Below, one piece after another: positions 15,272-46,469 of a stretch of 63,055 bases of DNA. Origin of the DNA: Bacteroidales bacterium (lineage in GTDB: Bacteria; Bacteroidota; Bacteroidia; Bacteroidales; Marinilabiliaceae). Made by a program: the position numbers and the translations under genes. The stretch is from the NCBI GenBank assembly GCA_017417385.1, contig JAFPZF010000018.1, forward strand, positions 1 to 63,055, written 5' to 3'. The notes beneath the pieces were generated by a model. The model did no database searches and had not been told where the DNA came from. It saw only the letters and a list, made by a program, of their open reading frames with translations. Numbering within the stretch: the stretch's first letter is position 1; each line of letters opens with the position of its first letter.

Positions 15272-15757
15272 ATGCAAACGATAGTACGGATAATGCTGGT
15301 CATTGCGATTGGCATGGCGATGACATCGTGCAGCAGCTACAAGTATGTAGGGAAGCTGTACATGGACTTTTGGGGATGCTATAGTGAATACATTGGGGAC
15401 AACGTAACAAGAGTCAATGCGAAGGGGGAGCCGTATTATAATCCGAAACTTAAAGACCCTGGGGGCCTCGGGAAAAAAGAGTTTATAGACGATTTCACGA
15501 GGATGCCATACTTAGCGGACTTCATCTATGTAACTCCAGACGAATGGAAGGGAGGCAAGTATAATATTTACTTGATAAAAGACAGTGACGAGACAAGGCA
15601 TGTTTACACCATAACCATAGTCCTAAAGAGACGGTATCTAAACATGGGGAAAGCGTACTGTGTAAGAGACTCATACCCCAAAGCATACCATGAAGGGAAA
15701 AAGATCAATGGGTGTAGAGGAGTACCAGACCACGTGATACTATGCACATACGAGTGA
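15272..15757 (+). CDS. small lipoprotein, first of three tandem paralogs
   Basis: Unrecognised 161-residue lipoprotein. The signal peptide ends in a lipobox MAMTSC (Cys20), followed by SSYKYVGKLYMDFWGCYSE. Shared blocks in all copies are NVTRVNAKGEPYYNPKLKDP, GGLGKKE, YVTPDEWK, and a C-terminal GKAYC...YHEGKKINGCRG region. Its end overlaps the start of the second copy by 16 bases; the identical join sequence recurs between copies two and three, which indicates tandem duplication. No function can be assigned. Confidence 0.7.
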   Translation: MQTIVRIMLVIAIGMAMTSCSSYKYVGKLYMDFWGCYSEYIGDNVTRVNAKGEPYYNPKLKDPGGLGKKEFIDDFTRMPYLADFIYVTPDEWKGGKYNIYLIKDSDETRHVYTITIVLKRRYLNMGKAYCVRDSYPKAYHEGKKINGCRGVPDHVILCTYE

Positions 15758-16435
15758 ATGGAATACAGATAATGCTGGTCATTACGATTGGCATGGTGGC
15801 AATGACGTCGTGCAGCAACTACAAGTATGCAGGGAAACTGTACATGGACTTTATGGGGTGCTATAGTGAATACATTGGGGACAACGTAACAAGAGTCAAC
15901 GCTAAGGGGGAGCCGTATTATAATCCGAAACTTAAAGATCCTGGGGGCCTCGGGAAAGAAGAGTATATAGACGATTTCACGTGGAAGCCATGCTTAGCTG
16001 ACTTCATCTATGTAACTCCAGACGAATGGAAAAGAGGGGTAAGAACAATATATACTTGAGGTGACTTCTATAAATTGCTTTTTCTGCGTTGGCGTTGCCT
16101 TCATTCCTCACGCTCGGCAATAGGAGCAAGCTCCATTGCTCTCGCTTAATCGGAATGTTGCACTTCGGTCGTTGAAATCCTCATGTACGCCAGTACACTC
16201 CGGTGTTCAACGCCTTGTGCGCCTTGAAAAATCTAATTTCTAGAAGTCCCCTTATTAATAAGGTGATGAGACAAGGCATGTGTACACCATAACCAGAGTC
16301 CTAAAGAGAAGGTATCTAAACATGGGGAAAGCGTACTGTGTAAGAGACTCATACCCCAAAGCATACCATGAAGGGAAAAAGATCAATGGGTGTAGAGGGT
16401 TACCAAACCACGTGATACTATGCACATACGAATGA
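15742..16435 (+). pseudogene. second lipoprotein paralog, interrupted by an inserted element
   Basis: The 5' part (15742-16059) encodes the lipoprotein signal (MTSC) and the blocks seen in copy one up to the DEWK segment, then shifts frame and stops. The 3' part (from about 16262) resumes with GDETRHVYTI and runs intact to a stop at 16433-16435, matching the C-terminus of copy one almost base for base. Between them lies a 194-bp element. A small extra shift relative to the paralogs (ATATATAC for ATATTTAC) may be a later change. The gene is therefore split and almost certainly not functional as the full-length protein. Confidence 0.85.
16061..16254 (+). mobile_element. terminal-inverted-repeat element, copy 1
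   Basis: Starts GTGACTTCTATAAATTGC and ends GATTT-type AATTTCTAGAAGTCCCC, which is an imperfect inverted repeat of the start. Inside are a hairpin GGAGCAAGCTCC, the tail CTCTCGCTTAATCGG, and CACTTCGGTCGTTGAAATCCTCATGTA. It carries no gene and splits the second lipoprotein paralog. A clean target duplication is not visible here; GGTGA flanks both sides but may be coincidence. Confidence 0.75.
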
Positions 16436-17111: not shown

Positions 17112-17552
17112 ATGTACTTATTCCAGATCGTATCAGTCGTCCTATGTGGATTTGCCCTCCCCATCATCATGGTGTACATCAGTTATCGCCAGAAGATGAA
17201 CGACAACAAGATGCGCACCCAGATAGTCCTTGCGGCACTCGAGAAGAACCCGGGGATAGACGTCGAGGAGCTACTCAGGAAGGTGACGCCAGAGAGCAAG
17301 CCCAAGCTACTGAAGGAGAAGCTACTCACGAAGCTGTTGTGGGGTAGCATCCTGACAATCATGGGAGCAGGGTTCCTAATCACGCAGCTATTCGACATGG
17401 ACCACAAAGTCTTAACCCTCTTTGAATTAGCTGGAGTGCCATTGTTGGCGGTGGGGATAGCGTTGCTCGTCAACTACTATGTAGGCAAGAAGACCTTGGC
17501 GAAAGAGATGGAGGCCGAGGAGAGGGCCATGCAAGAGAAGGCAGACAAGTGA
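17112..17552 (+). CDS. DUF6249-like membrane protein
   Basis: A 146-residue protein with an N-terminal membrane helix (about residues 3-22), a charged segment with a helical EKNPGIDVEELLRKVTPE region, two more helices (about 78-95 and 102-122) and a charged C-terminus. This layout matches small DUF6249-type proteins found beside ECF sigma factors in Bacteroidetes; I make that family call from the pattern only. Its TGA overlaps the GTG start of the sigma gene, so the two are translationally coupled. A role in signalling to the sigma factor is inference from position. Confidence 0.75.
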   Translation: MYLFQIVSVVLCGFALPIIMVYISYRQKMNDNKMRTQIVLAALEKNPGIDVEELLRKVTPESKPKLLKEKLLTKLLWGSILTIMGAGFLITQLFDMDHKVLTLFELAGVPLLAVGIALLVNYYVGKKTLAKEMEAEERAMQEKADK

Positions 17553-18034
17553 CACGCGAAGAATTCACGGACCACGTAGAGCGAGAGCAGGCGGCATTGC
17601 GAGGCTTCCTGCTCGCGCTCTGCTGCGGGAACAGGGATGAGGCGGACGACATAGCGCAGGACGCGCTAGTCAGGGCGTATCTCTCGTTGCCGACGTACAG
17701 GGACCAGGGGCGATTCCGTTCGTGGCTCTTCAAGATAGCTCACAACACATTCCTCAACCACAAGGCGAGCGTGAAGGTGACGGAGAGCATCGAGGAGGCG
17801 CGGCAGATAGCAGGTCAGGCAGCTGCGGACTCGTCGTTTGAGCATCAGGACCTGTATCTTGCACTGCGGACGCTGCCTCCCAAGGAGCGGTCGGCGATAA
17901 CGCTGTACTACCTCAGCGGGTACAACATCGAGGAGATAGCGAAGATAACGGATGCGACAGAAGATGCGGTGAAGAAGCAGATGTCGAGAGGGCGAGAGAA
18001 ACTAAAAGAGAAACTAAAAGAGAAACTTCTATAA
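17549..18034 (+). CDS. ECF-type RNA polymerase sigma factor, 3' end altered by an inserted element
   Basis: A 161-residue sigma-70 family member of the ECF type. Sigma region 2 covers about residues 27-75 (ADDIAQDALVRAYLSLPTYR, FRSWLFKIAHNTFLNHKA) and region 4 about 105-158 (LPPKERSAITLYYLSGYNIE, EIAKITDATEDAVKKQMSRG). The start GTG overlaps the stop of the preceding gene (GTGA). Its last two Leu codons and TAA stop lie in the inserted element. If the element and one copy of the flanking CTAAAAGAGA are removed, the frame instead runs on to KERLRL and a TGA overlapping the ATG of the next gene. The current protein is thus only slightly changed. Confidence 0.93.
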   Translation: MTREEFTDHVEREQAALRGFLLALCCGNRDEADDIAQDALVRAYLSLPTYRDQGRFRSWLFKIAHNTFLNHKASVKVTESIEEARQIAGQAAADSSFEHQDLYLALRTLPPKERSAITLYYLSGYNIEEIAKITDATEDAVKKQMSRGREKLKEKLKEKLL

Positions 18035-18360
18035 ATTGCTTTTTCGGCGTGACACTTCGGTCGTTGAAATCCTCATGTAGCTGCGCTGACCTTTCTCACG
18101 CTAGCTTCGCTGACTATTCTCACGTTGACTTCGTCGACTTTTCTCTCGCTCGGCAGATTTCAAGCAAGCTTGATCTGCTCTCGCTTAATCGAAAAGTTGG
18201 CGTAGCCTTCATTCCTCACGCTCGGAAATTGGAGCAAGCTCCATTCCTCTCGCTTAATCGGAATGTTCAGCAAAACGAGCAAGCTCGTTCTGCATTCGCT
18301 TAATCGAAAGTATGCACTCGCTTAATCGCACAAGTGAAAAAACTAATTTCTAGAAGTCCC
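18024..18360 (+). mobile_element. terminal-inverted-repeat element, copy 2, with target duplication
   Basis: Begins AACTTCTATAAATTGCTTTT and ends CTAATTTCTAGAAGTCCC. It is flanked by direct repeats CTAAAAGAGA at 18014-18023 and 18361-18370. The interior is a string of hairpin modules: three ~24-bp units (AGCTGCGCT, AGCTTCGCT, GACTTCGTC cores, each ending TTCTCACG or TTCTCTCG) and three larger ones (CAAGCAAGCTTG, GGAGCAAGCTCC, CGAGCAAGCTCG), each followed by TCGCTTAATCG. No gene inside. It separates the sigma factor from its presumed anti-sigma factor. Confidence 0.85.
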
Positions 18361-18380
18361 CTAAAAGAGAGATTGAGACT

Positions 18381-18773
18381 ATGAACGAAGATAAAGAAAT
18401 AGAGAAGCTGTTTCGGACGAGCACGCCACAGTTTGACGACAGTCGGGACTTCATGGCGAGGCTCGGTAAGCGGCTCGAGGCAGTAGAATACATCAAGAAG
18501 CATCAAGAGGCTACGCTACGGCGGTATAAGATGGCGGTCGTGGCGGCATTCGTCGTCGGCATCATCAGTGGTGGCGTGACGATAGGAGTCGTGAACGGCA
18601 TGACGCTAGACACGACGGCACTTGACATACAGGTGCAGGCGCTGACATTGTCGGTGAACCTCGACAGCGTGCGGCCGATAGTCACGGGAGGGCTGTCACT
18701 GCTCATGACGATGGGGCTGCTCGGGGTGGTCAGGAACGTGACGGACATAATAGAGATGAGAGGGAGAAATTGA
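18381..18773 (+). CDS. putative anti-sigma factor, two membrane helices
   Basis: A 130-residue protein with a soluble N-terminus of about 50 residues (acidic, containing FDDSRDFMARLGKRLEAVEY) and two membrane helices (about 52-75 and 95-118). The layout is like small Bacteroidetes proteins encoded right after ECF sigma factors and thought to hold them at the membrane. The reconstructed pre-insertion sequence has an ATGA overlap with the sigma gene, which strengthens the pairing. No zinc-binding HxxxCxxC motif is seen, so it is not a ZAS-type anti-sigma factor. Function is inferred from position and topology. Confidence 0.7.
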   Translation: MNEDKEIEKLFRTSTPQFDDSRDFMARLGKRLEAVEYIKKHQEATLRRYKMAVVAAFVVGIISGGVTIGVVNGMTLDTTALDIQVQALTLSVNLDSVRPIVTGGLSLLMTMGLLGVVRNVTDIIEMRGRN

Positions 18774-46172: not shown

Positions 46173-46192
46173 GGGAACTTCTAGAAATTAGA
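46173..46192. repeat. isolated element terminus
   Basis: GGGAACTTCTAGAAATTAGA, a half copy of the terminal repeat just outside the larger element at 46210-46469. Confidence 0.6.
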
Positions 46193-46209
46193 TTATTATG
46201 CCTTGTCAT

Positions 46210-46469
46210 GGGGGCTTCTAGAAATTAGATTTTTCAAGGCTTGCGAGTTTTTGAATACCGGAGTGTACTGTAGGAAACCTTTCGATTAAGCGAGTGCAAT
46301 GGAGCTTGCTCCAATTGCCGAGCGCGAGAAAGGTCAGCGCAGCTACATGAGGATTTCAAAAATGAGCGTAACATTCCGATTAAGCGAGAGAAATGGAGCT
46401 TGCTCCAATTTCCGAGCGTGAGGAATGAAGGCATCGCCAACGCAGAAAAAGCAATTTATAGAAGTCCCC
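46210..46469 (-). mobile_element. terminal-inverted-repeat element, copy 3
   Basis: Read on the minus strand it starts GGGGACTTCTATAAATTGC directly after the stop codon of the di-haem peroxidase gene and ends AATTTCTAGAAGCCCCC. Inside are two GGAGCAAGCTCC hairpins, TCGCTTAATCG repeats and the AGCTGCGCTGACC module also seen in copy 2. Orientation relative to the upstream gene is the same as in copies 1 and 2. No gene, and no target duplication I can see. Confidence 0.75.

Follow-up and report, generated by a model that had tools for sequence, protein, structure and literature searches.

A non-autonomous MITE at the junction of an ECF sigma factor gene and a probable anti-sigma gene in a Bacteroidales genome

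In the genome of a Bacteroidales bacterium of the family Marinilabiliaceae, the ATGA junction between an ECF sigma factor gene and its downstream neighbour, a probable anti-sigma gene, has very probably been invaded by a non-autonomous MITE. This reading, which comes from comparison of sequences, is supported by relatives that have the gene pair without the MITE and by the membership of the insert in a repeated, transposon-like family. The window, i.e., the whole stretch of DNA that was analysed (63,055 nucleotides; contig JAFPZF010000018.1), contains the following features.

16060..16251, + strand, second MITE copy, 192 bp, inside a lipoprotein-like gene (family comparison, paralog alignment)
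17112..17552, + strand, upstream small gene, DUF6249-like (PF19762), whose TGA overlaps the sigma GTG
17549..18034, + strand, ECF sigma factor gene with a GTG start and a TAA stop at 18032-18034 that comes from the MITE (Pfam, sequence)
17999..18022, + strand, two tandem 12-bp units AAACTAAAAGAG (repeat search, ortholog comparison)
18014..18023, + strand, left flanking direct repeat CTAAAAGAGA (repeat search)
18021..18361, + strand, MITE copy, 341 bp in the end register of the family, placed earlier at 18024-18360 (family comparison)
18025..18044, + strand, left terminal inverted repeat (repeat search; 115 genome matches to the left-end 21-mer)
18140..18199, + strand, internal hairpin module with ACTTTTC...GAAAAGT arms (module match, 80% identity)
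18197..18267, + strand, internal hairpin module with CATTCC...GGAATG arms (module match, 96% identity)
18338..18357, + strand, right terminal inverted repeat (repeat search; 85 genome matches to the right-end 25-mer)
18361..18370, + strand, right flanking direct repeat CTAAAAGAGA (repeat search)
18381..18773, + strand, putative anti-sigma gene encoding 130 aa without a recognised domain (relative in 78 of 80 ortholog loci)
46210..46469, - strand, third MITE copy, 260 bp (family comparison)

Judged by its domains, the sigma factor is an ordinary member of the ECF group: sigma-70 region 2 (PF04542, E 1.2e-14) and region 4 (PF08281, E 1.2e-15) are both found, and both matches exceed their cut-offs. 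The product of the upstream gene matches PF19762 with an E value of 3.4e-7 and 30.6 bits, under the cut-off of 33, and a relative of this gene is present in 77 of the 80 ortholog loci; a literature search for DUF6249 matched only a plant gene family. The downstream gene looks intact, because its 130-aa frame is open and aligns with 33 ortholog proteins (taken from 61 distinct downstream proteins that passed in the ortholog loci) at 40-55% identity, with 13 columns invariant across the 34. No family in Pfam or NCBIfam matched the downstream protein at E 1e-3, and no anti-sigma domain was detected in the downstream proteins, of which 34 members were compared with Pfam and two with NCBIfam. The top weak Pfam match was DUF2207_C, seen in 22 of the 34 members with an E value of 0.0038 at best, and comparison with the PDB gave two marginal matches (E 0.031 and 0.49). 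The adjacency of the downstream gene to the sigma gene is conserved, with a 4-nt overlap in 63 of the 80 orthologous loci and a relative somewhere in 78, and by this position the downstream gene probably encodes an anti-sigma factor.

In the present sequence, the sigma frame ends in SRGREKLKEKLKEKLL (KEKLL and a stop) with its TAA within the left end of the MITE, and 346 nt lie between this stop and the next ATG. The repeat search located CTAAAAGAGA at 18002-18011, 18014-18023 and 18361-18370, and the last two flank the insert, as the first-pass annotation had noted. Joining the flanks in silico, i.e., deleting the insert and one repeat, gives a sigma tail of SRGREKLKEKLKERLRL (KERLRL and a stop), the TGA of which overlaps the ATG at 18381 by 4 nt as ATGA; the reconstruction proposed in that annotation is thus reproduced. 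The sigma GTG overlaps the TGA of the upstream gene by 4 nt as well (window 17549-17552), and the reconstructed operon therefore has two 4-nt overlaps. The accompanying proposal that the element replaced the C-terminus and stop codon of the sigma factor is right about the stop, a TAA supplied by the MITE, but only the last few residues differ (KERLRL to KEKLL).

The comparison with related genomes that the first-pass annotation had called for does yield empty sites. In a genus search of 15 genomes, the window's own included, two others (G013 and G002) hold both the sigma and downstream genes, neither has the MITE there, and neither has a single MITE left end. The G013 junction is an ATGA overlap, whereas G002, the nearer relative, has TGA-CT-ATG, a 2-nt gap with no overlap, at a place where one contig stops just past the ATG and the downstream gene starts on another. 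Orthologous sigma loci were taken from species genomes as the best 80 of 336 relatives found, and overlap was counted to the first ATG of the next frame of at least 90 codons. The 4-nt ATGA overlap is present in 63 of these 80, spacers of 12-68 nt in 11, and overlaps of 14 or 29 nt in two; L137 has an ATGA junction, but its next frame is 64 codons. Three junctions lie too close to a contig end; one of them (L097) equals the G002 contig in length and in sigma identity and is probably that record. The other 77 junctions are readable, and a comparable insert is absent from all of them. A different junction in relatives had been named as evidence against the reconstruction; G013 and the 63 loci show the reconstructed overlap, and G002 and the 11 loci with spacers show another junction. 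Because 63 of the 80 orthologs overlap while 11 carry spacers, ATGA is, on these sequences, the prevailing junction, yet not an essential one. Several of the spacers resemble slipped short repeats (L109, L123, L129, L145). Three orthologous operons (L121, L134, L165) have a near-identical 55-nt spacer between the sigma stop and the next ATG, which represents an independent loss of the overlap.

Retention of the 4-nt overlap in 63 of 80 orthologs suggests that translational coupling of the sigma/downstream pair is usually favoured. Insertion of the MITE would abolish translational re-initiation via ATGA, the downstream gene would then rely on its own A/G-rich leader (TAAAAGAGAGATTGAGACT), and the folded, untranslated spacer may lower downstream expression, leaving more sigma factor per inhibitor. 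Of the claim that a regulator had been uncoupled from its inhibitor, the loss of the overlap is borne out, but the supposed inhibitor matches no anti-sigma family. Lower downstream translation is to be expected from the sequence, although the effect may well be mild or absent, because 11 orthologs have shorter spacers and the downstream gene is intact; the chances that the ratio of the two proteins has really shifted appear evenly balanced. A circuit left unaffected by a real insertion, in which the downstream gene uses its own start and the products stay balanced, is possible but rather doubtful. The spacers of 12-68 nt in 11 orthologs, the conservation of the downstream gene and the local fold, which leaves the leader before ATG 18381 unpaired and the ATG in a weak 3-bp stem, are all consistent with it, whereas the overlap kept in 63 orthologs argues against it.

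That the insert is a mobile element is indicated by its family. A search of the window genome with the insert returned 124 matching pieces, and the left-end 21-mer (up to three mismatches) and the right-end 25-mer occur at 115 and 85 places, respectively, against none for the controls (for the left end, the reversed pattern). Delimiting copies in the fetched loci gave first 44 and finally 69 complete ones, 121-595 bp long, against 115 left ends in the whole genome; a copy counts as complete if the fetched sequence contains its two ends and 12 nt or more of flank. The copies have the hallmarks of a MITE. Terminal inverted repeats are present, those of the junction copy (18025-18044 and 18338-18357) being 20 nt long and 85% complementary. 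An exact 4-bp flanking repeat is found in 17 of the 69 copies, compared with a mean of 2.22 and a maximum of 8 in 2000 shuffles, which marks a target-site duplication of 4 bp for the family; flanking repeats of 2, 3 or 5 bp are not in excess in that register, one of 6 bp occurs in 1 of the 69 copies, and 52 copies, including the one at 16060-16251, have no exact 4-bp repeat in register. Over its first four positions, the right flank is 91% A/T. An internal transposase is absent: no copy longer than 620 bp was found though end pairing allowed 3500 bp, and no complete copy fits a transposase. No autonomous IS or other transposase-bearing partner with the MITE ends was found in the fetched sequence, most of which extends 1.5-2.6 kb beyond an end and which takes in part of the ends in a genome of 97 contigs. 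Carriage by phage was rejected, as viral contigs gave no exact left-end 21-mer.

Copies also meet one another. L068, flanked by TATA, lies within the left end of a different copy, and L081, also flanked by TATA, apparently does so too, its outer copy being less clear. L049, L204 and L208 are very short forms of ~36 bp in total, with hardly any sequence between their left and right ends. By simple ORF calling, which was made without a control, copies adjoin many different ORFs, and no retained ORF extends across a copy; gene 3' ends facing the MITE left end are at a median distance of 13 nt (28 cases, -14 to 446) and those facing the right end at 34 nt (24 cases). The sigma gene fits the pattern of a 3' end near a left end.

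As RNA, the junction copy folds into a branched structure better than 100 shuffles (z -3.17); as single-stranded DNA, its fold is unremarkable (z -1.23), and 9 of 100 shuffles fold equally well. This strong RNA fold, together with sigma and downstream genes that are both open and conserved, would suit a domesticated regulator, the transcript of which acts as an attenuator or processing site setting the amount of the downstream protein. Such a role is unlikely, since the region 17900-18500 has one terminator-like site against 0.6 expected and no sigma-70-like promoter, no TAnnTTTG box occurs on either strand of 17951-18400, and no such insert is found at the 77 readable ortholog junctions. Promoter donation was rejected on the lack of sigma-70-like sites and on the scarcity of the TAnnTTTG box, which each strand (+ and -) carries in 1 of the 69 copies. 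A clear intrinsic terminator was rejected on the count given above, and a known RNA family on the finding of no Rfam match above the gathering score within the window.

The flanks of the junction copy are unusual. Its 10-bp flanking repeat is the longest among the 69 copies (at most 8 bp in the others), and it has no 4-bp duplication in register. Since the family duplicates 4 bp, CTAAAAGAGA is not, from its sequence, a plain 10-bp target duplication, and the left junction appears to have been reworked. TAAA/TAAAA adjoins both ends of the copy if 1-2 nt were gained at the left end. The present 10-bp repeat may have arisen through a TAAA duplication with the addition of 1-2 bases at the MITE left end (AGAGAAACTTC versus the usual GGGAACTTC), followed by 12-bp slippage. 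The tandem AAACTAAAAGAG units occupy 17999-18010 and 18011-18022, and the left CTAAAAGAGA copy is part of them. In the ATGA orthologs listed, the KLKE-like unit at this position is mostly single and the sigma tail mostly resembles SRGRDKLKERLKL before its stop. After deletion of the MITE and one 10-bp repeat, the window sigma tail is still four residues longer than in these orthologs, and further deletion of one AAACTAAAAGAG unit gives SRGREKLKERLRL and a stop, the usual length. As ATGA orthologs have one unit, the extra one is most simply a slippage product in the window lineage, and slippage is its likely origin. The first-pass annotation had read the direct repeats as a mark of insertion, with the caveat that they might belong to a longer ancestral tandem. 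The family does duplicate its target, but by 4 bp and not 10; the left copy does lie in a tandem, but probably not an ancestral one, the ATGA orthologs having mostly one unit.

The 10-bp flanking repeats, with their exceptional length in the family, also underlie the conjecture, improbable on present sequences, that the MITE is a hairpin-forming, removable spacer which replication slippage could excise exactly, with a population switching between the uncoupled and coupled operon, in an order-wide family that gains and loses interchangeable ~70-nt hairpin modules. Growth of the whole spacer by local slippage, with a secondary likeness to an insertion, can be set aside as extremely improbable: the short, tandem-like spacers that several orthologs (L109, L123, L129, L145) have at this junction and the 12-bp tandem in the window recall such a process, but it is refuted by the match of the insert to genome-wide copies with defined ends beside many different ORFs.

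The second copy in the window splits a lipoprotein-like gene (15742-16419), for which a continuous paralog (15272-15757) provides the empty site. The left part of the split gene corresponds to paralog residues 5-100 (83.5%) and the right part to residues 106-156 (94%), and the DNA match ends exactly at the left end of the MITE and restarts 11 bp past its right end. Around the third copy (46173-46469, minus strand), an extra right-end sequence is situated 37 bp outside the first, which suggests that this copy is nested or compound.

The commonest short complete form of the family is a 121-bp scaffold, and many sizes step up from it by ~70 bp. Of the 69 copies, 43 can be read as this scaffold, either bare or lengthened at one or more of three slots (left, apex and right), and all eight slot combinations are seen (none, 9; left, 6; apex, 4; right, 4; left and apex, 4; left and right, 7; apex and right, 1; all three, 8); 26 copies, including that at the window junction, could not be placed. 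A search pattern consisting of the core CACGCTCGG...CTCGCTTAATCG, with some letters free and the arms outside it, retrieved 91 modules, the arms of which are complementary at 519 of 546 positions, compared with a mean of 358.5 and a maximum of 403 for permuted partners, and 20 distinct arm pairs give 107 of 120 against a mean of 80.9 and a maximum of 100; related copies are not independent, and these statistics are guides rather than probabilities. The module arms thus stay complementary while their sequence changes.

The scaffold occurs in 16 of 393 genomes of the order, the window genome included, and in 15 of 206 genera, where the 393 were drawn from a larger group and at most two candidates per genome were scored. 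In an alignment of 17 scaffolds, which leaves out L248, L249 and L250 (one genome each) and places without a locus, 11 of 29 predicted pairs keep pairing through two-sided changes in at least one sequence, a count made without a control, and the covariation energy term is small (-0.8). In L250 (144-268), from another genus, the scaffold apex holds the palindrome CCCGATATCTATCGGG, at the place where some copies in the window genome have a ~70-bp module. Of 61 relatives, two gave module matches, namely the window genome and, weakly, G009. The left-end 21-mer (up to three mismatches) was found in 21 of the 61 genomes, mostly one to three times and at about the control rate; counts stand clear of the control only in the window genome (115) and in G048 (18, with 2-3 mismatches; controls, 0). 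The 18 ACTTCTAAAAACTGCTTTTTC-like places in G048, a genome of the same family with no control matches, are probably a sister form of the MITE.

The BOX element is modular. BOX, RUP and SPRITE of Streptococcus pneumoniae are, like the present MITE, small repeats that insert into one another, a behaviour that a review of prokaryotic MITEs describes (PMC10969869); however, their host phylum is unrelated, and the likeness is one of descriptions. The closest described element found is BrickBuilt of Porphyromonas gingivalis (PMC4596501). It is an intergenic Bacteroidota MITE of a leader, repeated units and a tail, without a transposase, and strains with and without the insertion reveal a 4-bp GAAA duplication at one copy. 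It shares with the present MITE the phylum, the repeated internal units, a 4-bp duplication and the lack of a transposase, but its units are 23-nt tandem direct repeats and its ends GAGACCTTCGCA-like (IS5-like), whereas the present MITE has ~70-nt paired-arm hairpins and GGGAACTTCTATAAATT-like ends and falls outside the BrickBuilt definition. REP palindromes resemble the modules as short repeated palindromes outside genes, but they are units of 20-40 bp, whereas the modules are internal to an element that ends in inverted repeats and makes a 4-bp duplication (PMC3733652). For the gene pair, EcfO-Reo, CirY-CirZ and Das-Dma of Bacteroidota likewise have an ECF sigma gene beside an anti-sigma gene; in the published descriptions, by which the comparison was made, Reo and Dma span both membranes, whereas the present protein has 130 aa and no family match (PMC13114119, PMC13088901). 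The MITE family was not found in print by searches that included the strings CGCTTAATCG and AAAAATCTAATTTTTAGAA and covered mostly literature outside subscription, which argues weakly for its novelty.

The locus offers a clear example from nature of a MITE lodged within an overlapping regulator pair for which dozens of relatives supply the empty site, and it makes the value of ATGA coupling for the balance of sigma and anti-sigma factors directly testable. The family itself is unusual in combining a hairpin scaffold shared across the order with modules whose arms remain complementary despite sequence change. Both the growth of palindromic mobile DNA and the protection that tight gene overlaps may afford become inviting subjects of study.
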